From: a virus | Direction: 5' to 3' (one strand) | IMG/VR virus record: IMGVR_UViG_3300030012_001606 | Span: 1 to 25,432 of that record | Length of the DNA stretch: 25,432 nucleotides | Part shown: positions 1-12,500 of the stretch, in pieces | How the letters are laid out: each line of letters starts with the position of its first letter | Position numbering within the stretch: the stretch's first letter is position 1 | Notes under the pieces: generated by a model | Told to the model about the DNA's origin: nothing | The model's database searches: none | What the model saw: the letters and a program-made list of their open reading frames with translations, nothing else | Program-made: the position numbers and the translations under genes

Positions 1-1095
1 GTAAACCACCTTGGTAGTCAACATCCTCTTGGACCTTGTTGAAAGATTTCTCTTGTGAATACCACTGGCTACCTTGGCCCAAGCATTTCTTGAATCTCTG
101 TTCTCTTGCCCATCAATAGGAAATGGTGGTAACTCTTCGTCTTCTTTTGAAGGTAACCCCTCAACCTGTACATTGTTGTCCCAAGCCCATAACACTACAG
201 CCAATACATTCTGATTGATCTCCCAAGGCGTACGTTGGATGAGGTTAACAGCATCCATAGGAATCTTTAGTTTCTTTGGGTCCAGTGATCTTAAAAACTT
301 TTGGTCATGGCTTTTTATAAAAGGGAAACTTGGAGAGAATCCATCCTCCTCACTTGCCTTGTAACCCCCCTCCCACACTTGCTCCCAGTTTTCTGGAGGA
401 TCTATTGTCGGCATCCAAAAAGGATCAAGGATTGAATGATGGGTGTTGTAATTTTCTAGCCAATCAAGTGTCTCTTTGGTCGCTGCGACATAGCGAAGGA
501 TTCTTTTATTGTATGAGTTTTTGCGTATGTAAATATATTCAATCAGGCCAGTGGACACACGCAACAACTCAACTAAATTAGTGCCACAAGAAATCCTATC
601 CCTTCTGCTCCAGGGATCAAAGTTTTTCATGCCCTCCTTCTTTTCTTCGCTTCGCATAGACAACTGAATGTGCCTGTATTGGCTAGCCTTTGATCTTGTC
701 TTGGCTCCCTTGATGATACCCTTGCCCTTTGGGTTGGTCTTAACAAGGTAGGTACACATAACCTCTCGCTCTATGTACTTACCAACAGCATACGCAAGAG
801 ATGCCAAAGTCTTTTTTTTAGGTAACTCATCAAGCACAACCTTGAAGCATATAAAGGAAACCTTTTTCAAGTCGTAGCTCATTAGGTCACCTTTCCACCT
901 TGTAGGTCTTCCACCCTTTTCTTTTTTAAGAAGCTGCTTTACTCTTTTGTGAAACTCAGGCAACAACTCACGCATTATCTTTTGCCCTGCCTTTGATCTT
1001 GATATCTCATCATGGTCCCTTGCGCTCTCCCACTGCGAATTGTAACGGCCTATGCCAATCTCTGACATCTCTCTGTTCAGTTCACTTTGATCCAT
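1..1095 (-). CDS. T7-like single-subunit RNA polymerase, N-terminal part (runs off left edge)
   Basis: The minus strand reads open from an ATG at 1095 to base 1: 365 codons with no stop, and the gene continues outside the window. An in-frame TGA just upstream (1114-1116) supports this start; I see no clear Shine-Dalgarno sequence. The protein matches the N-terminal half of T7 RNA polymerase by motif order: DPWSRRDRISCG around 160-170 (T7 EAWSSWHKEDSI), PTIDPPENW then EGGYK around 229-246 (T7 CVVPPKPW...GGGYW), TPWEINQNVLAV around 289-300 (T7 TAWKINKKVLAV), and NAWAKVASG with a basic RSKR segment near the edge (T7 TAWKRAAAAV, KSRR). The catalytic palm and fingers are off the window and cannot be checked. 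This family transcribes phage middle and late genes from phage-specific promoters. The gene follows int and the attP core on the same strand, an unusual and probably regulatory arrangement. Confidence 0.93.
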   Translation of the reverse strand, partial: MDQSELNREMSEIGIGRYNSQWESARDHDEISRSKAGQKIMRELLPEFHKRVKQLLKKEKGGRPTRWKGDLMSYDLKKVSFICFKVVLDELPKKKTLASLAYAVGKYIEREVMCTYLVKTNPKGKGIIKGAKTRSKASQYRHIQLSMRSEEKKEGMKNFDPWSRRDRISCGTNLVELLRVSTGLIEYIYIRKNSYNKRILRYVAATKETLDWLENYNTHHSILDPFWMPTIDPPENWEQVWEGGYKASEEDGFSPSFPFIKSHDQKFLRSLDPKKLKIPMDAVNLIQRTPWEINQNVLAVVLWAWDNNVQVEGLPSKEDEELPPFPIDGQENRDSRNAWAKVASGIHKRNLSTRSKRMLTTKVVY

Positions 1096-1109
1096 AATTT
1101 TATTAGATT

Positions 1110-1177
1110 TATGTCAGGATTTTGTCAGTCGCAAAGGTTTTTCGCAGACAACATTTTCTAAATTGTCGGCTGACAAA
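1110..1177. repeat. Putative integrase arm-type sites, RNAP side of attP
   Basis: Copies of an octamer TTTGTCAG lie on the RNA-polymerase side of the attP core: TATGTCAG at 1110-1117, TTTGTCAG at 1121-1128 (11 bp further on, one helical turn) and an inverted copy CTGACAAA at 1170-1177. The inverted copy is part of a dyad, TTGTCGGCTGACAA, at 1163-1176. The same octamer with the same 11-bp phasing recurs on the other side of the core. By analogy with lambda-type attP, these could be arm-type integrase binding sites. The repeats are seen in the sequence; the function is inferred. Confidence 0.45.
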
Positions 1178-1220
1178 CCATTACAGGGCTTGAGTTTGAT
1201 GAGTTATTAAAAGAATGCGG

Positions 1221-1262
1221 AGAACCTAAATCTGGCGTGTCTACCTGTTCCACCACAGCCGC
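1221..1262 (-). other. attP core: 5' half of a tRNA-Leu(UAG) gene
   Basis: On the minus strand, 1262 to 1221 reads as the first 42 nt of a tRNA-Leu: acceptor strand GCGGCTG, TG, D-arm GTGGAACAGGTAGACAC, G26, anticodon stem CCAGA, loop TTTAGGT with anticodon TAG, then TCT. The stem's 3' strand should continue GG but reads CC, so tRNA similarity ends there and there is no T-arm or 3' acceptor strand. A tRNA fragment of this length directly downstream of a tyrosine integrase is the classic phage attachment core. A comparable 42-bp tRNA-Leu match beside int was reported for Prochlorococcus podovirus P-SSP7, and pelagiphages use tRNA sites. It is not a functional tRNA gene. Crossover probably occurs in or near the anticodon loop. 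Confidence 0.82.
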
Positions 1263-1293
1263 ATTTAACTTGTATCCCTTTTCCACCATACAT

Positions 1294-2424
1294 CTAAGCG
1301 AGTTTTTCTCCCTTATTTTTTTCTGAGGATTTGTCAGAGTATTCAGACATATTTGTCACCTTTTTGTCAGGAAACTCCAGAGCATTGTCTAAAGCGCAAA
1401 GTGCTTGCCTTAAATTGTGAGGCGCAAGCTTCGCATAACGCATCGATTGCTCGAGAGTTTTATGGCCCAACATACTCTGTACCAAAGGAATTGAGCCAGT
1501 CGCTTGTATGATCCTGGAGGCACATGTATGCCTTGTTAAATAAAAGACAAAATCTTTGTCAGTTGATCTGTTCATGTGACTTCTCACTTTATCCCACATG
1601 GATCTAATCCTTTCCTTGGTCCAGTACTTCCACAAATACTCTCGGTGTTGATTGTTCTTGTAAGCTAACAAAGCTCTACGAGTCAACGGCACAGTTCTTT
1701 GTTCTCCGTTTTTTGTATGAAACAAATCAACAACGTAACCAAGATGCTCATCCTTTCTTATGTGATGTGGTTTTATAAATCTAGATTCAATTGGCCTACA
1801 TCCAGTGTCCACTTGCCACGAAAAGAAATCACTAAAGTAATCTTCACCTTGCTCCTCAAGATAACTCAGTATCTCCATCTCTTCGTCTTTGGAAAAGAAA
1901 ATCAATCGCTCATTCTTTGTCTTCAAGAACTTGCTTTTAGGAAACTTAGGTTTTTTTGCAAGCAACGGAGGATCGTGGTCCACACAATAATTAAAGGCAG
2001 TACTAAGCGTTGCCAACTTCAAACGTATTGTTGCAGGTGCATTACCCGAATGCCTACACTCACTTACAAACTCATTTATCATGGTTGTCGTTATGTGCTT
2101 TATCTTTGTCTTAGGACCAAAAGCTTTCTCAAACATCTTTGAATGAGAGAACGCATTGTCCCAATTAGGTAACCCCTTCCAGTGCATTTCTAACACGAGA
2201 TCAAACATCTCTCTTAGGTTCATGTTGTCATCAGGGCCACTGCTTGCACCCTTAACACCTTGAACATCAAGACCATACTTTAATCTACCACGACTCTCTT
2301 CTTCCCACCTGGATGCGTCGGTTTCATTGTCAAAATACTTTCTGTACCTTTTGCCCGAATGCATGAAGTCTGCAAGATAAGATACAATTTCATTACGTTT
2401 GTTTCGTTGTGGACGAACTGCCAT
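1294..2424 (-). CDS. int: Tyrosine-family site-specific integrase
   Basis: A 376-residue tyrosine recombinase that would integrate and excise the phage genome at the adjacent tRNA-Leu-derived attP. An N-terminal arm-binding/AP2-like region (about 1-60) is followed by a SAM-like core-binding domain (about 68-150) and the catalytic domain. Visible catalytic residues are R210 (TGCRPIE), K238 (HTKNG), R298 in YLTRHT, H321 (MLGHK) and the nucleophile Y330 (MRYAKL). The first His of the usual HxxR box is Tyr295, a tolerated substitution. The ATG at 2424 is preceded by AAAGGAGGT (2433-2441), the strongest Shine-Dalgarno in the window. A consensus host-type promoter lies just upstream. The 3' end contains TTTGTCAG repeats that may be arm sites, and two GCATTCGGG motifs lie in the gene. 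The tail beyond about 355 is polar and probably disordered. Confidence 0.95.
   Translation of the reverse strand: MAVRPQRNKRNEIVSYLADFMHSGKRYRKYFDNETDASRWEEESRGRLKYGLDVQGVKGASSGPDDNMNLREMFDLVLEMHWKGLPNWDNAFSHSKMFEKAFGPKTKIKHITTTMINEFVSECRHSGNAPATIRLKLATLSTAFNYCVDHDPPLLAKKPKFPKSKFLKTKNERLIFFSKDEEMEILSYLEEQGEDYFSDFFSWQVDTGCRPIESRFIKPHHIRKDEHLGYVVDLFHTKNGEQRTVPLTRRALLAYKNNQHREYLWKYWTKERIRSMWDKVRSHMNRSTDKDFVFYLTRHTCASRIIQATGSIPLVQSMLGHKTLEQSMRYAKLAPHNLRQALCALDNALEFPDKKVTNMSEYSDKSSEKNKGEKLA
1330..1370. repeat. Putative integrase arm-type sites inside the int 3' end
   Basis: Three direct copies of the TTTGTCAG octamer occur at 1330-1337, 1352-1359 (TTTGTCAC) and 1363-1370, with start-to-start spacings of 22 and 11 bp, that is on one face of the helix. 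They overlap the last codons of int and face similar copies on the far side of the attP core. A lambda-like P' arm is the simplest reading; binding is not demonstrated. Confidence 0.45.
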
Positions 2425-2441
2425 TGCTGTTTACCTCCTTT

Positions 2442-2457
2442 GGTTAAGTTAAGTTAA
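2442..2457 (-). repeat. AACTT pentamer leader repeat before int
   Basis: The minus strand reads TTAACTTAACTTAACC just before the int Shine-Dalgarno. The identical 16-mer is found at 4576-4591 before another early gene, and shorter variants occur at 3767-3775 and 4159-4170. It lies at the predicted 5' end of the int transcript. Function is unknown. Confidence 0.7.
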
Positions 2458-2465
2458 ATAAAAAA

Positions 2466-2493
2466 CTAATACTAATTTAGTTTTGTTTGTCAA
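2466..2493 (-). promoter_or_regulatory. Putative sigma70-type promoter for int
   Basis: The minus strand has a perfect -35 TTGACA (plus 2488-2493), a 16-bp spacer and TATTAG (plus 2466-2471) as a 4/6 match to the -10. Transcription would start near 2458, about 34 nt before the int ATG. This suggests int can be transcribed by host polymerase independently of the upstream early genes. Inferred from consensus only. Confidence 0.5.
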
Positions 2494-2520
2494 TAAGTAG
2501 TTGGTTTTGTTGAATGAGGA

Positions 2521-2553
2521 GCAGGAAGAAAAGCAAAAAAGAAAACTTCCTGC
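2521..2553. other. Inverted repeat in int leader region
   Basis: A perfect 8-bp stem, GCAGGAAG (2521-2528) with CTTCCTGC (2546-2553), encloses an A-rich (plus) or T-rich (minus) 17-nt loop. It lies upstream of the int promoter and downstream of a small membrane gene. No U-tract follows directly on either strand, so I do not call it a terminator. Confidence 0.5.
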
Positions 2554-2598
2554 CCCCATTCGTTTTAACCTAACCACCAAATAACATATAGAAGTGAA

Positions 2599-2625
2599 CA
2601 TAGGTGAACTCCTAAAACACCTATG
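2599..2625. other. Inverted repeat just after small membrane gene
   Basis: A perfect 8-bp stem, CATAGGTG (2599-2606) with CACCTATG (2618-2625), has an 11-nt loop. It starts 8 nt after the stop of the 45-codon membrane gene. On the minus strand the loop contains AGGAG and the 3' arm contains ATG, so an alternative reading is a sequestered ribosome-binding site for a 50-codon frame whose product does not look like a protein. A transcript-stabilising or processing hairpin is more likely. Confidence 0.5.
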
Positions 2626-2632
2626 CTCGATG

Positions 2633-2770
2633 TTACTCAATGACGTTTGTATCTTTGCGCTCGTGAATATCTTTGTCAACATCACAAACGGAAAAAAATC
2701 TTAGGATCAATACGTTTAAAATAACCCATAAAATAATAACAAGTAACGCAATCATATCTTTCCTGTTCAT
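2633..2770 (-). CDS. Small single-span membrane protein (45 aa)
   Basis: A short minus-strand gene begins at ATG 2770 (MNRKDMIALL...) and encodes 45 residues. An internal ATG at 2755 would give 40 residues and has AGGAAAG about 5 nt upstream, so it may be the true start. Residues 7-27 are almost entirely V/I/L/A/F with one Trp and form one membrane helix; a polar, charged C-terminal tail (DVDKDIHERKDTNVIE) follows. It starts 6 nt after the stop of the DnaA-like gene, as expected in an operon. The function is not recognised. Small membrane proteins in phage early regions often act on the host envelope or in superinfection exclusion, but nothing here shows that. Confidence 0.6.
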   Translation of the reverse strand: MNRKDMIALLVIILWVILNVLILRFFSVCDVDKDIHERKDTNVIE

Positions 2771-2776
2771 TCAATA

Positions 2777-3151
2777 CTAAAGCACTATGTAATCAACCAG
2801 TCTATTTACATATGGCAACAACAAATGCCTCCTACCCTCAGTTGCCCGAATGCCCTCAAGATCATCAAGGGCCACTCCTACAAGCACCTTGTCTTGCCCG
2901 AATGCATCACAAACTTCTTCCAGGTTACAACCAAACTCACTCACTAATGTATAAATGATTATGTTTCTCCATCGGATTATGTAGTTCTTTTTTAGTTTCT
3001 TTATCTGGTCTGGAGAATACCCCGTCATTTCTGATGCACCCTTTAACATTGCATCAATCAGGCTATCAAGATCACCCGAATGCTTTTGCCCGAATGCATC
3101 TATGTTTTGTTCTTTTGTTTTTTGAGTTAGTGGTTGTTTTAATGTTTTCAT
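2777..3151 (-). CDS. DnaA domain IV-like DNA-binding protein
   Basis: A 124-residue protein whose residues about 45-122 resemble the C-terminal DNA-binding domain of bacterial DnaA. RWRNIIIYTLVSEF (60-73) aligns with the RQxAMYLxREL helix, and NLEEVCDAFG (76-85) with SLPEIGxAFG. The diagnostic DnaA-box recognition loop GRDHTTV is replaced by QDKVLV (86-91), so it probably does not read a standard DnaA box. The DnaA ATPase domain is absent. The first 40 residues are polar and contain DAFGQKHSGD, encoded by two GCATTCGGG motif copies; two more copies lie further along the gene. It sits among early genes upstream of int, where a lysogeny or replication regulator would fit. The fold assignment is by motif, not by search; the role is inferred. 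Confidence 0.62.
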   Translation of the reverse strand: MKTLKQPLTQKTKEQNIDAFGQKHSGDLDSLIDAMLKGASEMTGYSPDQIKKLKKNYIIRWRNIIIYTLVSEFGCNLEEVCDAFGQDKVLVGVALDDLEGIRATEGRRHLLLPYVNRLVDYIVL

Positions 3152-3165
3152 AAATATTTTATTTG

Positions 3166-3396
3166 TTAATCGTTTTCGGCAAGATCCAAGGGAAGCTCAA
3201 TGGCTTCTCCAATAATTTGATTACGTAAACTATCCATTGTGAAATCTTCGACCTCGCCTTTCCTGGGTGAAAGTTCTCCTGGTTCGGGACTTAAATTATA
3301 CTGTTTGAATGATACGAGCTTGCCAGAATGCTTTACGTATATTTTCTCGATGATGATCGGCAAGCCATTTGGCCTCAAAAATCTTATTATTTCCAT
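3166..3396 (-). CDS. Hypothetical early protein (76 aa)
   Basis: A 76-residue protein starting MEIIRFLRPNG. The frame stays open to a GTG at 3423, but that extension lies inside a terminator stem and its U-run, so the ATG at 3396 is the credible start. The N-terminal half looks like a small beta-rich domain (IIRFLRPNGLPIIIEKIYV); the C-terminal half is acidic, with SPEPGELSPRKGEVEDF. No family recognised. It is the first gene after the strong terminator at 3411-3445 and is followed 14 nt later by the DnaA-like gene, so the two probably form one unit. One variant copy of the GCATTCGGG motif (GCATTCTGG, encoding HSGK) is present. Confidence 0.68.
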   Translation of the reverse strand: MEIIRFLRPNGLPIIIEKIYVKHSGKLVSFKQYNLSPEPGELSPRKGEVEDFTMDSLRNQIIGEAIELPLDLAEND

Positions 3397-3410
3397 TTTT
3401 AAAAAAGACA

Positions 3411-3445
3411 AAAAAAGAACCACTTAAAACTAATTAAGTGGCTCT
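3411..3445 (-). terminator. Strong rho-independent terminator within early region
   Basis: On the minus strand, AGAGCCACTTAA (plus 3434-3445) pairs with TTAAGTGGTTCT (plus 3416-3427) in a 12-bp stem with one G-U pair and a 6-nt loop, directly followed by a T-run (plus 3411-3416) and a second T-rich stretch. It lies between the stop of the gene at 3458 and the ATG at 3396. It should halt most host-polymerase transcription from the early promoters before the DnaA-like and int genes. Confidence 0.85.
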
Positions 3446-3457
3446 TTGTTTAGATGT

Positions 3458-3754
3458 TTAGAATCTCGATTCAGCCTCCAGCATAGCCCTTGCATCGGCT
3501 AACGTCATGTCTTCGGAATAATGCCAAGCGTTCTGGTCTTCCAGAAATATAAAGTCATCTAAGAACGTTTGACTCGTAAATGAGTGAGCTAGTTTGTAAA
3601 CATCTTCGTCATTATTAAATCCGTACCATTCATTAAAAGGACTTGTACCACTTGTAATGGCGTAATGATAAGAATCTGCATTATCAAACCAATCAGGCGC
3701 ATATGGCCCTTGATGATATTTGAAATCAATTTCAGGAATTGTCATATTTTTCAT
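3458..3754 (-). CDS. Hypothetical early protein (98 aa)
   Basis: A 98-residue acidic, aromatic-rich protein (many W, Y, F, D, E). The ATG at 3754 is followed by a second ATG at 3745 (MTIPEI), and either could be used. I recognise no domain and see no signal peptide or membrane segment. It has an AACTTAACC tract about 13 nt upstream and is closed by the strong terminator that follows it. Small acidic early proteins in T7-like phages are often host-enzyme inhibitors, but there is no direct evidence for that here. Confidence 0.72.
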   Translation of the reverse strand: MKNMTIPEIDFKYHQGPYAPDWFDNADSYHYAITSGTSPFNEWYGFNNDEDVYKLAHSFTSQTFLDDFIFLEDQNAWHYSEDMTLADARAMLEAESRF

Positions 3755-3801
3755 TTATTTGTTTTAGGTTAAGTTTTTTTCTCAGTGTTAATAAACTGAA
3801 T

Positions 3802-3835
3802 ACAGCCAATCAAGTAACTAAACCTAATTGGCTGT
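3802..3835. other. Inverted repeat between early genes
   Basis: A perfect 9-bp stem, ACAGCCAAT (3802-3810) with ATTGGCTGT (3827-3835), has a 16-nt loop containing AACCTAA. There is no U-tract on either side, so a processing or stability hairpin is as likely as a terminator. It lies 10 nt after the stop of the gene at 3846. Confidence 0.55.
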
Positions 3836-3845
3836 CTTCTATTTA

Positions 3846-4139
3846 CTAACTACATTCAAATAAATCCTGGCATATAGCGTCAATACCTAGATTATCTTCA
3901 TAGCTCCAAACTTCGCTATCAGTTCCCCAATAGCCTTCCACTTTGTTGTACTGTGTATCAACCCAGATATTCGGGCCTCCAAAAGTTACAAGGATCCTTG
4001 CTCCGAGATATTCTTTTTTCTGGTTAACTATGTATTGAATATCAAGTGCATTATTTAACCAATCGGAAATATCTTCCTCCTCTTCTTCTGGTTTTTCTAT
4101 TCTATTTATTTGGTGTAGTACTTGGCTTTTAAGTTCCAT
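3846..4139 (-). CDS. Hypothetical early protein (97 aa)
   Basis: A 97-residue protein with a charged N-terminus containing an EEEEED run (about 19-24) and a C-terminal half with the pattern ILVTFGGPNIWVDTQYNKVEGYWG. This looks like a small beta-strand domain found in uncharacterised plasmid and phage proteins, but I cannot name the family with confidence. It starts at ATG 4139, with an AACCTAACCT tract about 20 nt upstream and no clear Shine-Dalgarno. It is flanked by inverted repeats on both sides, like its neighbours. Confidence 0.75.
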   Translation of the reverse strand: MELKSQVLHQINRIEKPEEEEEDISDWLNNALDIQYIVNQKKEYLGARILVTFGGPNIWVDTQYNKVEGYWGTDSEVWSYEDNLGIDAICQDLFECS

Positions 4140-4173
4140 AATATTATTCGGTGTTTTTAGGTTAGGTTAAAAC

Positions 4174-4202
4174 CAGTTAATAAGATTTATTCTTAATAAC
4201 TG
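4174..4202. other. Inverted repeat between early genes
   Basis: CAGTTAATAAG (4174-4184) and CTTAATAACTG (4192-4202) form an 11-bp stem with one mismatch and a 7-nt loop. On the minus strand it is followed by GTTTTAACC and then the AACCT tract before the gene starting at 4139. The pattern of hairpin, pentamer tract and gene repeats several times in this region. Confidence 0.5.
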
Positions 4203-4270
4203 AAACCTAGAAAGCTAATAATTAAACTAGCAATCCAGGGTTCAATAATTAAAAAAAGGAATATAAAAGT

Positions 4271-4348
4271 TTAGAAATATTTCTCTGATATTCCAGCAAT
4301 AACGCAAAGTATGCACGTTCCTATTAAGACGAGTAGTAAAAATGCCAT
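4271..4348 (-). CDS. Possible membrane microprotein (25 aa)
   Basis: A 25-codon minus-strand frame from ATG 4348, beginning MAFLLLVLIG and ending SEKYF, is almost entirely one hydrophobic helix with a short charged tail. It begins 4 nt after the stop of the preceding gene (4353), consistent with translational coupling. There is no clear Shine-Dalgarno. The length makes it uncertain; it would be the only gene in an otherwise empty 213-nt gap. Confidence 0.35.
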   Translation of the reverse strand: MAFLLLVLIGTCILCVIAGISEKYF

Positions 4349-4352
4349 TAGG

Positions 4353-4562
4353 TTAATTATTTTTTAGGAATTGTTTTAATATTGGCTGTATTTCTTTTTT
4401 ATCAATATAGCCTTTTTTAACAAGTGAGCAGATATAGGCATTAAATGACAAGTGATGATCATTTCTTAAATATTGTTCATCGCTACATAAATAGCCGTTT
4501 AAGTAAATATCTTCTACAATATCACTTGTGACGTTATCAAACGTAATTAGTTCTTTAGTCAT
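4353..4562 (-). CDS. Hypothetical early protein (69 aa)
   Basis: A 69-residue protein (MTKELITFDN...) that appears all-helical and ends in a basic amphipathic helix (LVKKGYIDKKEIQPILKQFLKN). No family recognised. An exact copy of the TTAACTTAACTTAACC leader repeat lies 13 nt upstream of the ATG, the same element that precedes int. The length and context fit a T7-like early gene product. Confidence 0.65.
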   Translation of the reverse strand: MTKELITFDNVTSDIVEDIYLNGYLCSDEQYLRNDHHLSFNAYICSLVKKGYIDKKEIQPILKQFLKNN

Positions 4563-4575
4563 CTTTTATTGAGTT

Positions 4576-4591
4576 GGTTAAGTTAAGTTAA
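4576..4591 (-). repeat. AACTT pentamer leader repeat, second exact copy
   Basis: The minus strand reads TTAACTTAACTTAACC, identical over 16 bases to the element before int at 2442-2457. It is followed by CAACTCAATAAAAG and the ATG at 4562. A possible -10 box (TATAAT, plus 4623-4628) lies about 35 bp upstream with only a weak -35. Confidence 0.7.
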
Positions 4592-4672
4592 TTAGGAGTC
4601 TTTTTTTAATTAAGACGATGCAATTATATGTAGGATAAAAACGAGCGCAAATAATTTTCTCTACTTTTTTCA

Positions 4673-4996
4673 TTAATTTTTAGTAATGTTCTTTTTATAC
4701 CTGGATAACTGGTTTTTTACGATTGGAATATAAAGAGAGTCGATGCAACGTATTAAGGCTTCCTCTGTATCTTCGTTGTTCAATAGATAAGAGAGGCCAC
4801 TTACAGCAAGGCAAGCGTGTAAAGATTCATGTAGGATTGTTTCAAGTGTTTCCTGGTTGCTTAAAGATTCTCTAATTGTGATAAGTTTTTTATCAATGTC
4901 ACAAAGTCCATAATCATTAATGGATTTGTATTGGATCTTGAACAACACTCCAGCAATCGATATGGATTTAGGTCTGTAAGTTTCTTTATCAGTCAT
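4673..4996 (-). CDS. Small HExxH metallopeptidase-like early protein (107 aa)
   Basis: A 107-residue protein with a zinc-peptidase signature HESLH at residues 56-60 (ETILHESLHACL), preceded by a strand-rich N-terminal part (SISIAGVLFKIQY; CDIDKKLITI) and followed by an acidic helix with NEDTEEALIRCI (about 74-85) that could supply the third zinc ligand (Glu78 or Glu79). This layout is typical of minimal gluzincin-like domains (SprT or ImmA/IrrE style) in phages. It is the first gene after the junction, hence probably the first early gene expressed. Possible roles are cleavage of a host factor or of a repressor; substrate and activity are unknown. The start at ATG 4996 lacks a good Shine-Dalgarno. 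Confidence 0.68.
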   Translation of the reverse strand: MTDKETYRPKSISIAGVLFKIQYKSINDYGLCDIDKKLITIRESLSNQETLETILHESLHACLAVSGLSYLLNNEDTEEALIRCIDSLYIPIVKNQLSRYKKNITKN

Positions 4997-5142
4997 TAAA
5001 TAGTTGAGTTGGTTGAGTGTGGTTACAAAGTGAATACGTTAGAAAACAAAAACGGCAACAATCAAAAAAGTACAGAAACAAAAGAAAAGAGAAAACCAGG
5101 CCCAATAATAACCCATCAGATAAAACATCTGGAGCAGATACT

Positions 5143-5174
5143 ATTATATAAGTATGAATTGCAAGTCCTGACAA
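5143..5174 (-). promoter_or_regulatory. Putative host promoter for the early operon
   Basis: On the minus strand a perfect TATAAT (plus 5143-5148), overlapping TATATA, lies downstream of TTGTCA (plus 5169-5174). Spacing is 18 bp to TATATA or 20 bp to TATAAT. The start would be near 5136, giving a leader of about 140 nt before the metallopeptidase-like gene, with a small hairpin at its 5' end. A dyad overlaps the -35. Confidence 0.4.
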
Positions 5175-5185
5175 ATTTACAGGAC
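5165..5185. promoter_or_regulatory. Operator-like dyad overlapping the early promoter -35
   Basis: GTCCTG (5165-5170) and CAGGAC (5180-5185) form a perfect 6-bp inverted repeat with a 9-bp AT-rich centre, about two helical turns in total. Its position over the putative -35 is that of a repressor operator. Only one copy was noticed. Confidence 0.4.
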
Positions 5186-5370
5186 AATACGGCCCCTGTT
5201 TAACTTTAAAATATACAAAAAATCTACAGAACTTGACCTGGTTTGGGGGAATCCGAATGCGAGTGCGTATATATTACCCCTTCAGATTTTTTTACCAAAA
5301 CAAAGGGAGGGATGGTTTATTAACAAACTCAAACACTCAACATCAAGGTGCTAACATACTTATAGACTTA

Positions 5371-5466
5371 TATAACATATATAACATAAAGCTAACACCT
5401 TTATACATATATAACACCTATAACACCTATAACACTATGCGTAGCTACTATAACACCTATAACATA
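5371..5466. repeat. TATAACACC iteron cluster around a GTAGCTAC palindrome
   Basis: Near-identical 9-mers occur at 5410-5418, 5419-5427 and 5428-5436 (TATAACACT), then after a perfect 8-bp palindrome GTAGCTAC (5441-5448) at 5449-5457 and 5458-5466 (TATAACATA). Diverged 8-mers precede them at 5371-5378 and 5380-5387 (TATAACAT) and 5392-5399 (CTAACACC). Several sit in strict 9-bp tandem. T7 has short heptamer repeat arrays beside its terminal repeat, and this cluster lies in the matching position; an iteron origin or a regulatory array is also possible. Confidence 0.8.
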
Positions 5467-5478
5467 TCTTTAAGATTG

Positions 5479-5496
5479 AGTTTATGAGTTGTTATT
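5479..5496 (-). promoter_or_regulatory. Possible phage RNAP promoter-like motif
   Basis: The minus strand reads AATAACAACTCATAAACTCA, sharing AACAACTCA with motifs upstream of the tail fibre and tail tube genes and resembling the T7 core CGACTCACTATA. It lies upstream of the early region beside the iteron cluster. Weak, based on similarity alone. Confidence 0.3.
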
Positions 5497-5608
5497 TAAA
5501 CCACTTATCCAATTGACCATATTCCATATATCCAATTTATATAAGTAAGGGGCAATAATGAGTGTTATTTTCCCGAAGGGAGGGTTTGTTACTCACCTTC
5601 ATCATTCC

Positions 5609-5620
5609 TTCGTATACGAA
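5609..5620. repeat. 12-bp palindrome nested in a longer inverted repeat
   Basis: TTCGTATACGAA is a perfect 12-bp palindrome. It is flanked by GGTTTGT (5583-5589) and ACAAACC (5622-5628), which could pair around it. It lies 26 bp beyond the amidase stop codon. It could be a protein-binding or processing site near the genome end; there is no U-tract for termination. Confidence 0.6.
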
Positions 5621-5645
5621 TACAAACCTAAAGACCCTATTTTTT

Positions 5646-6359
5646 CTATAGTATTATGTGTTCATCGCTCCACTGTTTAATTCCTGTGGCAAGAGCTTGG
5701 CTAAGAACGTGTTCATTGTTAGCGAATGTGGTCCAATCTGGTTCAAAGCAAGTGCCAAAAAATGGTTCAGTGATGACGGCAGGGCAATGGGTTCCTCTGA
5801 GGAATGTAGCACCTCTGTCACCGCTCTTTCTGCTTTTGGCTCCTCGACTTTTAATGAGTGGGAAATATTTCTGGCAGCCTCTAAGAAGATACTCAGCGAG
5901 GCTTAGACCGATCCTAGAGGTATTCCAGTAGAGCATTTCCATTCCATTGGCCTTCGAGTTGCTTGAGGCGTTGAAGTGGAGTTCTATGGCGATGGAGGCT
6001 TTTTCTTTCTTTAGGTGTTTTATGAGCCAGTTCATGGCAGATGTGTAGGAGCCATAGGTTCCTCCGTAGTCATCTACGACAAAGCTACTGATGCCATATT
6101 CCTGGAGGTCTGACTTCAGGTATTCAGCGACCTTCTTATTGTAGGTCCACTCGTTGATTCCTCCGCATGATACAGCACCAGTATCTCCCTTCCTTGAGTG
6201 TCCTACGCATATAGCGACGTTGAGGTCATCTCTAGGAATGCTGTTGGTTGGAAAGGGTACAGTGGGTTTCTCCTTTAGCTTTTCTATTTCGTTGATGTGT
6301 TCAATGGCGTTACTGATGTGTTCTTGAGCCTTGAACAGGTCTTCTTTAATGTCCTTCAT
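5646..6359 (-). CDS. N-acetylmuramoyl-L-alanine amidase endolysin (Amidase_3)
   Basis: A 237-residue endolysin that would cut the bond between muramic acid and L-alanine in peptidoglycan at lysis. Residues 1-35 form a charged, probably coiled helix. The rest is a zinc Amidase_3 domain with the expected ligands and catalytic Glu: H54 in VGHSRKG, E70 in INEWTY, H128 in IELHFNAS and E198 in ITEPFF. There is no signal peptide, so release depends on a holin. T7 encodes an Amidase_2-type lysozyme (gp3.5) among its middle genes; here an unrelated Amidase_3 enzyme lies after terL at the end of the late operon, with its own promoter-like motif. A possible coat of repeats and palindromes follows it at the genome junction. 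Confidence 0.93.
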   Translation of the reverse strand: MKDIKEDLFKAQEHISNAIEHINEIEKLKEKPTVPFPTNSIPRDDLNVAICVGHSRKGDTGAVSCGGINEWTYNKKVAEYLKSDLQEYGISSFVVDDYGGTYGSYTSAMNWLIKHLKKEKASIAIELHFNASSNSKANGMEMLYWNTSRIGLSLAEYLLRGCQKYFPLIKSRGAKSRKSGDRGATFLRGTHCPAVITEPFFGTCFEPDWTTFANNEHVLSQALATGIKQWSDEHIIL

Positions 6360-6389
6360 ATTTCCTCTACAAATCGTCGTTAATTAAAA

Positions 6390-6413
6390 TGGTATATAGT
6401 GAGTGAGTTATTG
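6390..6413 (-). promoter_or_regulatory. Putative phage RNAP promoter before the amidase gene
   Basis: The minus strand contains AATAACTCACTCACTATATA; the last part, CTCACTATA (plus 6395-6403), is identical to the -9 to -1 bases of the T7 promoter. A start near 6394 would give a leader of about 35 nt to the amidase ATG. The initiating bases are TAC rather than the T7 GGG, so recognition is uncertain. It lies in a 76-nt gap between terL and the amidase. Confidence 0.45.
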
Positions 6414-6435
6414 TTCTAAGCCCACCTCGTTAATC

Positions 6436-8097
6436 CTAGAGCCAGTTAGGGCTATTCCTATGGTTCTTCTTGTTCCCAAAGTAGCTGTCAGCCATCTTTT
6501 GTAACTCTTGGTCCAGAAGATCCTCCTTGCGATCCTTCATCTTCTTTTCGGCATCTTGTGCCATCTGTTCAGACCAATAGCTCACTGCCATTGCTAAGGC
6601 ATCCAATCGGTCATCGTGGGTGATAGCACCTCTGTCTCTTGTTATTCTGGACAGTTGATAGATGAGTTGGTATTTGAGTTGGGATTCAAGAGGGTAGTTC
6701 TGAGCAGTCTGAAAGTCCTGTCGGATAACATCAGGTGATATAACAAGCTTATGCTGACTCATTACTGGCTCAAGGGTGTCAATGATCCTCTTCTCCTTCT
6801 GGATGCTGTGGCGTACTTCTTCAATCGAGCAGGGGTGTATTTTGTTTAGGAAAGGTTTAAACAACTCACTAAACATACCATCACCAAAGTTACTCTCAAC
6901 AATGATGTAGTTGACCTTATGGGTCTTTGCTTTCATTGCAAGAACCTTGAGGACATCTTCTCCGTAGCCCCCTTGCATACCTCCTGCATCAGGGACGTAG
7001 AGATATCCGTTAAGCATCTTTACAATGGCCCAGGAGGTTTCATCTCGTCCTCTTCCTGATGGGTCAATCGACATGACTGATCCAGTGAACTCAACCATGT
7101 CACCAACTTGCTTGAAAGGTCTATAGAATCTATCTCCACTGAAGCCTACGTTAGGGACATCTCCAGTCCAAGCTAGGTCTGGTGATTGCGCCCACACTAC
7201 TTTCTCAGGAGCCACCTCGTTGTCTATGTCCATTACAAGCAAGTCGTTGACCTTTAGGGGGAAGCGATCAACATCTGACAGTTTACTATCAAGCATGAAC
7301 TGCATAGCAAAGCCAGCTTTTCCGTAGCTGACCTCCCGTTCTGCCAGATCTATCTCACTAAACCTTATAGGTTCTGTGGACTTGTTCTTCTTTTCTTCAG
7401 ACACGCAAAGTGGGCTAACTCGTCCATAATAAGTTTTCTCATTATCTTTGGGAGTTATGTACTTGCAGGGCCATATGCAAGCGGTGTAGTCTCTCTCCAT
7501 CAGTTTGTTGTAGAGTGAGTCTTCACATTGAGGCGTACCCAGAAAGACAATCTTGGATTCCTTATCAGGTTTTAATATGGACTCGAACTCCTTTACCTGC
7601 TCTCCAAGCTTATCTCTCATGCCTTGCGTGGCTGAGTTGTTTGGAACCTCCACATCGTCGGCCACTATGATGTCAGCCCTGCTTCCAGTTAGTTGGGAGG
7701 TAATGCCTAGTGACTTAACACTCGGAGCATGACTAGCTGGTGCAGGACCAACATCAAAACTTATCTTTGAAAATCGTTGTTTATCTGTGGGGATCAAATG
7801 GGATAGTAGAGGCATCTCGTGGATTAGCCTCAAGGTAAACGTGGAGAAATCGTCGGCTCTAGTTTTACTGGCAGAGCATACCAGGATGTTTTTTGATGGG
7901 TCCAGAAGTAGTTGGTGTACAACGTATGCTGAACAAATCCAAGATTTACCTACGCCTCGGAAGCCTTGGATAACAGCCCTTCTAGGGCCGTTCTGCATCC
8001 AGTCAGCAATCTCGTATTGTATGTCTGTGGGGTCGGGGAGATTGAGGTGTTTCCAAACGAGGTAAAGGAAATTTCTGAAGTCCTTTAACTCTTCCAT
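6436..8097 (-). CDS. terL: Terminase large subunit (T7 gp19-like)
   Basis: A 553-residue packaging motor. The N-terminal ATPase has Walker A GFRGVGKS (45-52), Walker B IIVADDVE (143-150) and a coupling motif FLGTPQ (185-190). The C-terminal RNase H-like nuclease has D345 in SIDPSGRG, a second acidic site around E401 in VESNFGDG and D495/D496 in HDDRLDA. T7 gp19 is of similar size. It packages concatemeric DNA into the prohead through the portal, together with the small subunit encoded just upstream. The ATG at 8097 follows the terS stop by 9 nt; there is no strong Shine-Dalgarno, so translation may be coupled to terS. Confidence 0.96.
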   Translation of the reverse strand: MEELKDFRNFLYLVWKHLNLPDPTDIQYEIADWMQNGPRRAVIQGFRGVGKSWICSAYVVHQLLLDPSKNILVCSASKTRADDFSTFTLRLIHEMPLLSHLIPTDKQRFSKISFDVGPAPASHAPSVKSLGITSQLTGSRADIIVADDVEVPNNSATQGMRDKLGEQVKEFESILKPDKESKIVFLGTPQCEDSLYNKLMERDYTACIWPCKYITPKDNEKTYYGRVSPLCVSEEKKNKSTEPIRFSEIDLAEREVSYGKAGFAMQFMLDSKLSDVDRFPLKVNDLLVMDIDNEVAPEKVVWAQSPDLAWTGDVPNVGFSGDRFYRPFKQVGDMVEFTGSVMSIDPSGRGRDETSWAIVKMLNGYLYVPDAGGMQGGYGEDVLKVLAMKAKTHKVNYIIVESNFGDGMFSELFKPFLNKIHPCSIEEVRHSIQKEKRIIDTLEPVMSQHKLVISPDVIRQDFQTAQNYPLESQLKYQLIYQLSRITRDRGAITHDDRLDALAMAVSYWSEQMAQDAEKKMKDRKEDLLDQELQKMADSYFGNKKNHRNSPNWL

Positions 8098-8106
8098 ATA
8101 TTGTTA

Positions 8107-8358
8107 TTAGTTAACGTTGCTTATAGGGGGTTCCTCACCTTCTTCTTCCTCTTTAAACGGAAGAACACTTATAAGATCTTGAATCTTAGTGTCTTGTTTA
8201 AGTCCTTCATGTATGCCGTTATCTTTTAGATACTGTCTGGCAGCATTTAGCAAAGAAGGTTCTGCGTCTCCTAATTTGATGCGCTCAATGAACTCATCTG
8301 TTAGAAGATCCTGCAAGACATGCATTCTTGCTGAGTTGTCTTTATCGTTATTATCCAT
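8107..8358 (-). CDS. terS: Terminase small subunit (T7 gp18-like)
   Basis: An 83-residue acidic, helical protein (HVLQDLLTDEFIERIKLGDAEP, then AARQYLKDNGI) with a very acidic C-terminal tail EEEEGEEPP (about 71-79). Length, helix content and position between the holin-like gene and terL match T7 gp18, which recognises DNA and stimulates the large subunit. Sequence similarity to T7 gp18 is modest by eye, so the assignment rests largely on synteny. The start at ATG 8358 lies 4 nt beyond the holin-like gene's stop. Confidence 0.85.
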   Translation of the reverse strand: MDNNDKDNSARMHVLQDLLTDEFIERIKLGDAEPSLLNAARQYLKDNGIHEGLKQDTKIQDLISVLPFKEEEEGEEPPISNVN

Positions 8359-8362
8359 GTAG

Positions 8363-8524
8363 TTATTTATCCTTTTTACGTAATTCTGATATTATCTTTA
8401 ACACCATGTAAACAAGCGTAGCAGCACCTACAAGTACTGCAAGAATCTCGTTTACGTCATTGAGTGTTATGTTTGCTAGAAGACCTAAAACACCGACTGT
8501 AGGTGTCGTGAATTGATTGTTCAT
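8363..8524 (-). CDS. Holin-like small membrane protein (53 aa, T7 gp17.5 position)
   Basis: A 53-codon gene from ATG 8524 to TAA 8363-8365. The N-terminal 25 residues are polar to moderately hydrophobic (MNNQFTTPTVGVLGLLANIT). Residues 28-46 (LAVLVGAATLVYMVLKII) form one strong membrane helix, followed by a basic tail ELRKKDK. One transmembrane segment with a charged C-terminus and its place between tail fibre and terS match T7 gp17.5, the T7 holin. It would time lysis by permeabilising the inner membrane and releasing the amidase. It overlaps nothing: terS starts 4 nt later. Confidence 0.72.
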   Translation of the reverse strand: MNNQFTTPTVGVLGLLANITLNDVNEILAVLVGAATLVYMVLKIISELRKKDK

Positions 8525-8535
8525 GTACGTGGGGA

Positions 8536-9513
8536 TTATGCTAGTTGAAATATTCCTAAAGCTGCACGTTGGGCTATTATTTGTAGAGTTCCTGCTCCAG
8601 AATTAGCTTTTACTCTCAGTTTAATAGGTTGGTTTGTTGTCAAGAAATCAATAGCAAAGGTACTTACTGACGCTTTAGTCATGTTCGTGTTAGACCCACC
8701 TTGTGCGTGTGTTTCAGAGTTACTTTGGATTGTTCCATTTATAGGAGATCCGCTTTTCTCTATCCGTATTTCAACATGAGAAAGGTCGTTAGGGTCGGTA
8801 CAATTTACCTCCACTTGCCCTTGTATACAATAATAACCAGTGGCAGGGGGTGTGAAGGCATTGTTTGCAAATGAGTTTGTATTATCTCTTTCCTCGTCAT
8901 CTAAAACAACATCAGTCAATGTGTTAGCTGATAAAGTTTGAGGTGCGCTATTAGTTACAAACAGTTTAGCAAAATTAGAATTTGGTATGCTTACAGTTCC
9001 AGAAGCAGTTAAGTTATTAACACTCAAGTTTGTACTAGAAGGAAGACTTACTGTACCTGTAGCAGTCAGGTTATCTACAGTTGTAAGGCCTCCTAGCGTT
9101 AAATCATTAAGACTTGTTAACAACGAACCTACGGCTCCTGCATCCTCTGATACTTCTTGAGCCACAAACAGTCCTTGCTTGTAAGCAGTATCGAGATCTC
9201 TTTCTGTTAGCCTTGCGCCATCTACAAAGTCAACGAGTGCATTTGAAGTTGTTTGTCGATACAGTCGTATTTTTTGAAACGATGGTATAGCAGATAACTT
9301 TAGAGTTTTATCAGAAGCTTTACGTCCATCTGTTGGAGAACTATCTCCGTATGAAGAAAGTAAAGCTACGTCTTGCCAGATGCTTCCGTTCCAACCTTTG
9401 ACCTTTATGTCTGCAATATTTAAAAAATCAATGGAACTAAAACTAAATACTTGTTGTCCCAATTGGTTGGCTCCTGTTCCTGACGATGAATATTCTATAT
9501 ATGAATTTGGCAT
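8536..9513 (-). CDS. Tail fibre / receptor-binding protein with T7-type N-terminus
   Basis: A 325-residue tail fibre protein. Residues about 1-125 match the T7-type fibre attachment domain, with KIRLYRQTTSNALVDFVDGARLTERDLDTAYKQ in the region 81-113. A short central stem (about 137-182) has two copies of a TA(T/S)GTVS(L/I)P repeat. The C-terminal part (about 185-325), ending FQLA, looks like a C1q/TNF-like beta-sandwich tip (TGYYCIQGQVEV, then LRVKANSGAGTLQI). T7 gp17 is much longer (553 residues), so this is a short fibre. It joins the tail to a host receptor. A promoter-like AACAACTCA motif lies 17 nt or more upstream, in the 39-nt gap after the gp16-like gene. Confidence 0.85.
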   Translation of the reverse strand: MPNSYIEYSSSGTGANQLGQQVFSFSSIDFLNIADIKVKGWNGSIWQDVALLSSYGDSSPTDGRKASDKTLKLSAIPSFQKIRLYRQTTSNALVDFVDGARLTERDLDTAYKQGLFVAQEVSEDAGAVGSLLTSLNDLTLGGLTTVDNLTATGTVSLPSSTNLSVNNLTASGTVSIPNSNFAKLFVTNSAPQTLSANTLTDVVLDDEERDNTNSFANNAFTPPATGYYCIQGQVEVNCTDPNDLSHVEIRIEKSGSPINGTIQSNSETHAQGGSNTNMTKASVSTFAIDFLTTNQPIKLRVKANSGAGTLQIIAQRAALGIFQLA

Positions 9514-9529
9514 AAGTAATTGATTGTTT

Positions 9530-9548
9530 GTTTGGTGAGTTGTTAATT
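9530..9548 (-). promoter_or_regulatory. Possible phage RNAP promoter before the tail fibre
   Basis: The minus strand reads AATTAACAACTCACCAAA (plus 9531-9548), sharing ACTCAC with the T7 promoter core and AACAACTCA with motifs before the tail tube A gene and the early region. A start near 9530 would leave a 17-nt leader. T7 also has a promoter (phi17) before its tail fibre gene, which supports the position. Confidence 0.38.
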
Positions 9549-9552
9549 TGTT

Positions 9553-12500
9553 TTAAGATGATAATGGTGCTGCTGCTTCTCGCCTTGCTTGCATAGCTTT
9601 ATCAAACATTTCTTTTAGTTGTGGGCTTTCTTGCAGGAGTTCGTATCTGGCTTTCTTTCTGTAGTTATTAATAACCTTGTTGATTGCTTTAATCCTTTGA
9701 GACTTTTGCCCAGTTGCTTCAAAGTCTATTGTCTCTGGAAGTCTGTTATAAAAGTCAGTTCCCATTAAAGATTTGAGTCTTTGTTTCAAAGTTTTACCTC
9801 CAAGCTTAACTGTCCCAGAAAGTTCTAGGTATCTGTCATAAGCGTCATACTTACCTTCAATAGGAATCTGAGTAAGATCTATTTCTGGTATGCCATAGAA
9901 GTTTTTACTGGGCATTGAGAAACCATGTTCTAGTTTTGCCATCTCGCTTAACACTTTGTCGTTTTTGACTTTAGATGTGTAGATAGGATTAAAGGCACTC
10001 CAGAAAGCTCCTCCAGGGTTTTCTCTATAAGCTGCTTCTCCAAGAACTGTTCTTCTTGGTGCGAGAGTATCTTCAAGTCCTGGTAGCCTTTTAAATACAG
10101 CATCTTGAAAGCTTCTAACTTCTCTAACCATTATTTCAGTTTCAGTATTTTTGAAGTGATTAATAATGTTAGGGACAAAACCTGCTGCAATATCTCTACC
10201 TAATTTAGGGCCGTAGTATTCTGGATCGTCCATTAGTTTAATAGCGTTATTTACACCTTGTAGAAATGTTTTATCCGTAAGGTTTTCTGCAAATACAAAA
10301 GCTATGTTGGCTCCTAGACTTTGCATAGTTTCTTCATCCATACTGCGATCAAACTTCTGGTGATCTCTAATGTCAGCAGCAAGTCCAATCATTGTTGATA
10401 TTGGGTCTAGTCTTTGATAGCTGTAATAAGTATCTCCAAATTTTATAGAATAAGGTTGCCATCCAGTGGCTCTTAGAGCTTCTCTTTCTTGTTTGCTTTG
10501 TGGACCTCCTCCAGTAACAGAGTCTTGTCTGTTGTATATGAGGTCATGCCAAACGTATGTCATTACGGCTCCAGTTGCTAATCTACCTCTTAATAAAGCT
10601 TTGTCTGTCGCTGTTCCTTTTTTAGCTATATCCTTGTTTTTATTTAAAAGTTTCCTTGTTAACATAGGTGCGCCTTCCATAACAAAACCTATAGGTGTTC
10701 TTTTCAAAGCATATGTAAGAATGTTTACTGGAGTTCTAAAGAACGGAATAAGAAATGACGAAGCATACCCTACTCCAAAGGGAGCAGATCTTATCAACCT
10801 TTCTAAGCCTTGAAACCAAGAGTGGTTATCGTTTGTAAATGTAAGTTCGTTGGCAACCTGTTGGGCTGTTTCAGCAAGCTTTGATGTCTCTGTATCTTTT
10901 GGGGAGGGGTTTTCTCTTAAATATTTATCAAGCGCTTCTTCTCTTCCATCTCCAAATAACTTACCTTGCCTGGTTAACTCAGTATGTGCTGCCATTAACC
11001 TGTTCTTTTCGCTGTAGAAAGATCCATCACTTGTAAGATGCTTTTCAAATTCTGTTTCAACCTTTGCATTCAACCAGTTAGTGAACTCAGGATCTTTTAT
11101 ATCCATAGGGTCTTTATCGATCCCTAAGTCTTTAAACTTTTTCATGTCCATAGCATCAAGGGCAGCTTTGTATTCATCCAGATATCTAACTGCAAGCTCT
11201 CCTTTTATGTATCCAGTGTAAGCCATTTGTTTAAATAACTCGTCGGTAGCAACTAACGCTCTTGATGGAAGGTTTATAAATGCTCCTAGAAAATTAAAAG
11301 CTTCTCCTGCTACGCCAGTGTTGTCAGTAGAGAAAGCTCTTTGTCTTGGCCTTTGTTCCATGAACTGCGCTCTACCAGGAACAAGAACACTTCTGTCGTT
11401 TCTCCACGCCTTTGACATGGCGCTAAATCCTTGTCTCCAAGTTTTAAGTCCATAGTGGTGTCTTAAAACATTCTTAGCAGCGTTGAAGTTTCCTGTTAAG
11501 ATGTTACCAGCTATACGTTCTAAAGAATTAAATGCTGATGTTATGAGTCCTCCTCCAGCGTTAACTTCAAAAGTACTGAACGCACTCAACAATGAATTGT
11601 AATAGAACTCTCTGGTCATGCCTAACATCTTTCTTCCAAGTGTTTGCTGACCAATGTCTTGCATTTTCTTTAAAGACAACAACTCTTCAAACTCTTCAAA
11701 GTTACTTATCTTAGATAACCTTACAGCAAGTTCTGTTGGTTTTTCTGTTCCTAGTTTTTCTGCAAGAGCTTCTAAGTATTCGTCTTTGTCTCTTGTAGCT
11801 TCCAAAGGGTTTATAACGTTGTTATCTAATCCGTCCATTCCTTGTTTAAGGAACTTACGTTGCATCAAAGAACCCGAAGCGATGCTCCCTCTGATTGAGT
11901 TAATGCGTGATAATTCAGTAAACCTAGCAAAGCTATCTATAAAGTTTAACATATCTGTCTCACTCTTCGGGTTATCAATATGTCTTCTTGCAAGTCCCAC
12001 AGTTTCTTCTGCTGTGTGTCGCATGAACTTGTAAATAACAGTACTCATAACAAGTTCCTCGTTAGCCGACTGTATAAGCTTTTCGTCTGTAGAGTTTTCT
12101 AATATTTCTTTTATATTGTCGTACTTTTCAGGGTTGTCATTTATGAACTGAACAATCTCCTGTTGTTTCTTTTTATCTACCTTTGTTATGACATCCGATT
12201 CCGCTGTTATGTTCTTTGAAACTATTCTTATGATTTCCCAGAAAGAAGCAGTGTCTCCTACGCCTGATATAAGCTCCTTCATAGTGCTTGAATCAAGAGA
12301 TATATCACCGCCTCTACCTTTTGATTTACCTAGAATATTTGTTACTTTTTCTTTAAAAGTTCTGGCGTTTATTTCCGCACCTTCTTTGACTGTTGTTTTA
12401 GGAGTTTCGAAAAGAGCAATAGTATCCCTAGGATCTTTAGCTCCTACTCCAGTTTCTACCCCTTTAAATTTCTTATCTTTCATTGATTTAACGAAAGCGT

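Follow-up and report, generated by a model that had tools for sequence, protein, structure and literature searches.

Single-orientation 12-bp sites within the genes of T7-like phages: a candidate stoperator-like system of a protein with a predicted DnaA domain IV fold

How integrase-bearing T7-like phages, which are abundant in the sea, restrain their own RNA polymerase (RNAP) for lysogeny is an open question, for which the literature cited here names MarR-like proteins as the sole candidates. In LUZ100, a MarR-like regulator is co-transcribed with the integrase gene (int) and has been proposed to repress the phage RNAP (PMC10134795). We analysed a DNA stretch of 25,432 nucleotides, hereafter the window, which makes up most of the 25,967-base viral record IMGVR_UViG_3300030012_001606 and has the gene content of an integrase-bearing, T7-like phage (Autographiviridae). 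In and beside its int gene we found repeated copies of a 12-bp motif, GCATTCGGGCAA, together with a gene for a protein of 124 amino acids (aa) with a predicted DnaA domain IV fold; this locus offers a concrete candidate regulator-site pair.

At up to 2 mismatches, seven copies of the motif are located between positions 2042 and 3331, all of them on the minus (coding) strand:

3320-3331, minus strand: GCATTCTGGCAA (1 mismatch), in orf65; KHSGK, frame 2
3086-3097, minus strand: GCATTCGGGCAA (0 mismatches), in the N-terminal insert of the DnaA-like gene; AFGQ, frame 0; 14 bp start-to-start to the next copy
3072-3083, minus strand: GCATTCGGGTGA (2 mismatches), in the DnaA-like gene; KHSGD, frame 2
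2894-2905, minus strand: GCATTCGGGCAA (0 mismatches), in the DnaA-like gene at the family-conserved AFG; AFGQ, frame 0; partly protein-constrained
2842-2853, minus strand: GCATTCGGGCAA (0 mismatches), in the DnaA-like gene; GIRAT, frame 1
2351-2362, minus strand: GCATTCGGGCAA (0 mismatches), in int; MHSGK, frame 2; slot filled only in the window and L002
2042-2053, minus strand: GCATTCGGGTAA (1 mismatch), in int; RHSGN, frame 2; slot filled in all motif-positive int genes, including L058

The genes concerned are the following:

3166-3396, minus strand: orf65, a small beta-rich conserved protein, heading the motif-bearing operon
2777-3151, minus strand: the 124-aa protein of predicted DnaA domain IV fold, proposed motif binder (AlphaFold2 model, match to 1J1V, Pfam on a homologue)
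1294-2424, minus strand: tyrosine integrase (Pfam Phage_integrase 1e-13, phrog_1 2e-48)

A first-pass annotation made from the sequence alone had reported seven same-strand copies within 1.3 kb; their number and strand stand, and two of the positions, 2044 and 3074, are corrected here to 2042 and 3072. As it had also stated, three copies have 14 bases in common, and all three reading frames are used; the three are those at 2351, 2894 and 3086 (ATGCATTCGGGCAA), and the peptides are AFGQ in frame 0, GIRAT in frame 1 and HSGK, HSGD or HSGN in frame 2. The spacing between copies is irregular (14, 52, 178, 234, 309 and 491 bp). In 100 dinucleotide shuffles the mean was 1.02 copies with a maximum of 3, and none contained the seven observed.

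A scoring matrix was built from 74 distinct copies; its consensus is GCATTCGGGCAW, with little information beyond these 12 bases. On this matrix the seven copies reach 17.3-23.3 bits, and no other site of the window, on either strand, exceeds 5.8 bits. The scan of both strands revealed no copy in the late genes of the window, in agreement with what had been noticed at first reading, and the motif was rejected as a set of phage RNAP promoters because no copies are present there. A weak copy had furthermore been suspected near the early promoter, at 5251. We do not accept it as an instance of this motif, since only the 8-base core GCATTCGG is present, its matrix score is not among the window's top 16, and relatives do not match at the final four motif positions. 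The early promoter region (about 5234-5275, GGGGTAATATATACGCACTCGCATTCGG..CCCCC) has a conserved TAATAT box, which is followed by the 8-base core only in the window, L005 and L029.

Is this cluster peculiar to one record? Twelve contigs carry the motif, namely the window, a close clade (L001-L005, L013, L019, L021 and L029) and a distant clade (L058 and L046), the latter with a homologue of the 124-aa protein that is about 35% identical. All copies had been claimed to point with transcription, and this holds for 7 of 7 in the window and for 73 copies in coding sense versus 0 opposed over the 12 contigs (at most 1 mismatch). Well-covered phages have 6-12 copies each of the asymmetric 12-bp site, and in two long records all copies at up to 1 mismatch, mostly intragenic, fall within 1.4 kb (G001, 37.3 kb long) and 1.75 kb (G006, 36.6 kb long). 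When repeats of the region were sought de novo, this motif scored highest in the window, L004, L013 and L058. Intergenic tandems are placed directly after a terminator and before the operon, with a period of 8 bp in L001, L004 and L019 and of 10 bp in L058. It should be added that L014, L015, L017 and other contigs returned by a 16-base scan have tandem GCATTCGG but no gene relatives, and were treated as unrelated.

We then ask whether these letters are kept for the peptides or for the nucleic acid. Synonymous-codon shuffles of the window's three genes gave a mean of 1.63 sites (at most 1 mismatch) against 6 observed, a number reached in 0 of 2000 shuffles; the test errs on the side of caution, since the motif's own rare codons, TCG (4.7% of Ser) and GGG (8.2% of Gly), stay available for shuffling. 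Codons at conserved residues were identical in 92% of cases in the motif versus 67% outside it between the window and L001 (p 0.0045), and in 81% versus 47% between L001 and L058 (p 0.007). The excess is not significant in every pair (window and L058, p 0.07), and the comparison against the motif-less L059 returned no excess in the motif positions. The higher conservation of synonymous codons inside the motif than outside argues that the motif is under selection as nucleic acid, not as protein, as the first-pass annotation had held.

A coincidence at the protein level, with recurrent AFGQ or HSGK peptides written in biased codons, or a functionless mobile 8-bp microsatellite, has to be considered at this point. 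Two slots are indeed partly protein-constrained, since the AFG at 2894 persists even in relatives without the motif, as foreseen for this copy, and HSGK in orf65 is conserved as well; moreover, the tandem 8-bp units resemble slippage. For the copy set as a whole this explanation is refuted by the use of three frames and of rare codons, the synonymous shuffles, the strand bias, the intergenic copies and the retention of the motif across 35%-identical proteins, and we give it hardly any credence. Taken together, the comparisons show a system of asymmetric sites that is genuine, under selection and spread through a clade of temperate-type T7-like phages.

Copies occupy non-homologous places in different relatives, and their spacing is partly altered. 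The int slots differ by clade, with 2351 in the window and L002 and an AFGH slot in L001, L004, L013, L019 and L058. The 124-aa protein has an N-terminal insert whose copies are spaced by 14 bp in one sub-clade and by 8 bp in another; in L005 this insert holds one copy, and L058 and L046 have no such insert. L058 also lacks the IRAT copy, and its EAFGHP copy corresponds to KSFGHP without motif in L046. As for the motif's fate relative to its proteins, it was kept in L058 despite the low identity noted above and lost in the syntenic L059, L065 and L066, in which the recognition helix of the DnaA-like protein is changed (AFGLSAPAV, AFGMSASAV) and int and the AFG tripeptide are kept. No other repeat replacing the motif was found in L059, L065, L066 or L068, little upstream DNA being covered for L059 and L065.

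With which gene does the motif go? Several copies are within int and the cluster adjoins it, as would suit arm-type sites of the integrase or of its excisionase, and the integrase had been named as a possible binder. The elements that bear on this are:

1217-1262, minus strand: 5' fragment of tRNA-Leu, presumed attP core, between int and the RNAP gene (sequence, and conservation in relatives)
1330-1370, minus strand: [CG]TGACAAA in three copies to one side of attP, presumed arm-type sites of Int
1121-1128: [CG]TGACAAA repeat, on the other side of attP
1555-1562: [CG]TGACAAA repeat, presumed Int arm-type site

These repeats, distinct from the motif, stand at conserved distances of -317, -125, -114, -92 and +117 from the att core, and both they and attP are conserved also in L059, L065 and L066; they are presumed to be the integrase's own arm-type sites. 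Arm-type sites would be expected on both sides of the att core, no more than a few hundred bp away, and in phages that have int, whereas the motif copies are 0.8-2.1 kb away from attP and do not follow int: in L003 and L046, which keep the motif, the 124-aa gene and the RNAP gene have no int between them, and L059, L065 and L066 have orf65, the DnaA-like gene, int, attP and the RNAP gene in the same order without it. In the int tree, L058 groups with these three motif-less phages, so that at least 2 motif changes are required; 1 change suffices on the DnaA-like tree and on the RNAP tree alike. Because of the int-less keepers, the int-bearing non-carriers, the trees and the separate Int repeats, we judge from sequence that the motif belongs to the phage backbone and the DnaA-like gene and not to int, and integrase arm-type sites appear a most improbable explanation.

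The 124-aa protein is predicted to have a DnaA domain IV fold. Its AlphaFold2 model (pLDDT 81, pTM 0.75) matched the complex of E. coli DnaA domain IV with a DnaA box (1J1V) with Z 12.3 over 92 residues at 2.2 Å, other folds reaching Z of at most 6, and the best viral matches in Foldseek (BFVD) were phage proteins labelled 'DnaA C-terminal'. In the Pfam family Bac_DnaA_C (PF08299) the window protein scored 12.9 bits, below the gathering score of 31.5; the homologues of L046 (26.1 bits, E 9e-6) and L058 (1.8e-4) are below the gathering score as well, and keep the DnaA signature AFGRDHT[VI]V. A DnaA-type domain reads its asymmetric box with a single helix-turn-helix, as in DnaA-box complexes, and this mode of reading fits single-orientation sites. 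The RDHTTV-type recognition helix that reads TTATNCACA was not found in the window protein, and TTATNCACA itself occurs only once in the window. The motif complement, TTGCCCGAA, resembles TTATCCACA weakly (5/9), which may be chance.

The predicted fold would also suit an initiator of replication whose binding sites are direct repeats within and beside the gene encoding it, in the manner of lambda O, whose iterons are regular direct repeats within the gene of their own binding protein, beside an AT-rich unwinding element. The same-orientation repeats inside the gene of the proposed binder are a likeness to this system. Unlike lambda iterons, the sites are irregularly spaced, with spacing partly altered between relatives, and are distributed over several genes with turnover; furthermore, T7-like phages are known to prime replication from transcripts of the phage RNAP, and therefore no initiator is needed. 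We consider iteron-like sites unlikely.

The strict transcript-sense orientation, the copies in coding and leader RNA and the tandems directly downstream of terminators would fit an element read on the RNA, that is a strand-specific transcript site for an RNA-binding protein or a small RNA in termination or translation control, nut-like or TRAP-like. Such a role is improbable in our estimation. Folding of four sequences yielded one clearly more stable than its shuffles (z -2.7), with the motif folded differently in each, and the linked protein has a predicted DNA-binding fold. Overlapping copies fit DNA better, and so does the copy of the int-less L003 that is found just past a TTGACA, upstream of the RNAP start, in what is possibly untranscribed promoter DNA.

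We put at about even the chances that the motif copies are asymmetric operator or roadblock sites, stoperator-like, through which the DnaA-IV-like protein controls the operon it belongs to as well as int and the RNAP gene. In this scheme the protein would recognise numerous sites of one orientation, in the leader of its own operon, within the genes of that operon (orf65 and the DnaA-like gene) and in int, and, once bound, would act as an orientation-dependent repressor or roadblock to host RNA polymerase. The outcome would be autoregulation and less read-through toward int and the phage RNAP gene, in a stoperator-like module of lysis/lysogeny or early-gene control in which a DnaA-IV fold would take the part played by a MarR-like regulator in other temperate T7-like phages. 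We infer that this protein is the motif binder, on DNA rather than RNA, with repression as the outcome, and that the system has a role in lysogeny; perhaps it is the missing lysis/lysogeny switch of these phages.

Several points weigh against this proposal. The sites are mostly inside genes, away from recognisable promoters; the promoter scan made no call at the L003 copy, where the -10 of the candidate promoter is poor. Overlapping 12-bp copies at an 8-bp period could hardly all be occupied simultaneously. The pairing of motif and protein is drawn from sequence and predicted fold, and the recognition helix of the window clade is hydrophobic (DKVLVGVAL), without DnaA contact residues. That of L013 is rather different (DEVIAKITM plus a 4-residue insert), yet L013 has the same motif, which counts against a simple reading. 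Co-variation of the motif with the DnaA-like protein is confounded with phylogeny, a single change sufficing on the RNAP tree too, and the int-less phages, maybe not temperate, keep the sites.

More tentatively, and with somewhat less than even confidence, we suggest that, in a clade of temperate T7-like phages, a free-standing DnaA domain IV took over from the MarR-like regulator and became a transcriptional repressor with an asymmetric box of its own, and that these boxes are written into coding sequence in three frames, so that the proteins, including the N-terminal insertions of the regulator itself, are shaped by the need to carry operators. If true, a DNA-binding domain of a replication initiator would have been re-used as a phage regulator, and operators would have been selected within coding sequence in all three frames.

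The surroundings of the locus are as follows. The late genes occupy the minus strand from 25 to 5.6 kb, followed by small early genes and then by the segment orf65, 124-aa gene, a small open reading frame (ORF) of 40-45 aa, int, attP (tRNA-Leu) and the T7-type RNAP gene. Further features of this segment are:

3414-3447, minus strand: intrinsic-terminator-like hairpin, immediately upstream of orf65
2633-2770, minus strand: hydrophobic small ORF of 40-45 aa, conserved (RFFSVCDVD), between the DnaA-like gene and int
4-1095, minus strand: T7-type RNAP gene, N-terminal part, continuing beyond the window (full-length homologue in L001, 84.9% identity)

An RNAP is annotated at the same position in related phages. 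The small ORF (RFF[SA]VC) directly 3' of the DnaA-like gene is kept in the motif-less L065 and L066 too. The product of orf65 was considered as a motif binder as well; its predicted model is small, beta-rich and of low confidence (pLDDT 69). The record of the close relative L001 is 37.3 kb long and has downstream apparent genes for SSB, primase-helicase, DNA polymerase and exonuclease, named by eye from sequence. Neither the 124-aa protein nor window positions 1-12000 had a match among isolated phages, and scans of bacterial genomes for prophage copies returned no relatives.

Among the early genes, the small ORFs at 3400-4600 are cassette-like, each with a terminator-like hairpin, the leader AACTTAACCTAA and a gene; this leader ranks second among the repeats obtained de novo there, and the gene content of the cassettes varies among relatives. 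Upstream of the early genes, a block at about 5490-5545, TTACTTATATAAATTGGATATATGGAATATGGTCAATTGGATAAGTGG, is almost invariant in five relatives and is possibly an origin or a phage promoter. A 107-aa protein (4673-4996, minus strand) is weakly similar to zinc metallopeptidase families (phrog_1233 1e-11; DUF6782 0.0015). Some matches to polyubiquitin were judged spurious.

How, finally, does the locus compare with known systems? The first-pass annotation was reminded of mycobacteriophage stoperators. In Cluster A phages (L5, Bxb1, TipsytheTRex) these sites are asymmetric, about 13 bp long, numerous, of one orientation to transcription and diverging with the regulator (PMC6550527, PMC9283540), and for L5-type repressors reversing a stoperator abolishes repression (PMC9283540; PMC6550527). 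The likeness is upheld for an asymmetric site of the 13-bp class in many copies and a single orientation relative to transcription. It does not extend to distribution: mycobacteriophage sites are scattered genome-wide, for the most part in short gaps between genes, and those described here are confined to about 1.3-2 kb and mostly intragenic. As to an operator at an early lytic promoter, only the 8-base core follows the early promoter of the window, and L003 has its copy by TTGACA with the poor -10. Unlike the two-domain mycobacteriophage repressor, the candidate has a predicted DnaA domain IV fold and belongs to a T7-like phage. We do not class the locus as a mycobacteriophage stoperator system because genome-wide dispersal is lacking and the fold of the candidate protein is different.

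With DnaA domain IV and the phage 'DnaA C-terminal' proteins it shares the predicted fold and, in L046 and L058, the AFGRDHTVV signature, and the motif resembles DnaA boxes in being asymmetric, each box being bound by a single domain IV. It differs from DnaA in that the window protein has no AAA+ domain and a degenerate recognition helix, and in the different 12-bp motif.

In gene order the locus matches the cassette of MarR-like regulator, int and RNAP gene in LUZ100, HTVC119P, CRP-113 and MedDCM-OCT-S28-C10 (PMC10134795). The 124-aa protein has no sequence relation to the MarR-like set (hhalign probability 0.2%), and no similar clustered repeat was found in the int-bearing Autographiviridae S45-C18, S28-C10, CRP-113 and HTVC119P. 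In HTVC119P, CRP-113 and S28-C10 the MarR-like regulator is directly upstream of int, a place occupied here by the 124-aa gene, so that small regulator (here a candidate one), integrase and RNA polymerase follow each other in the same order.

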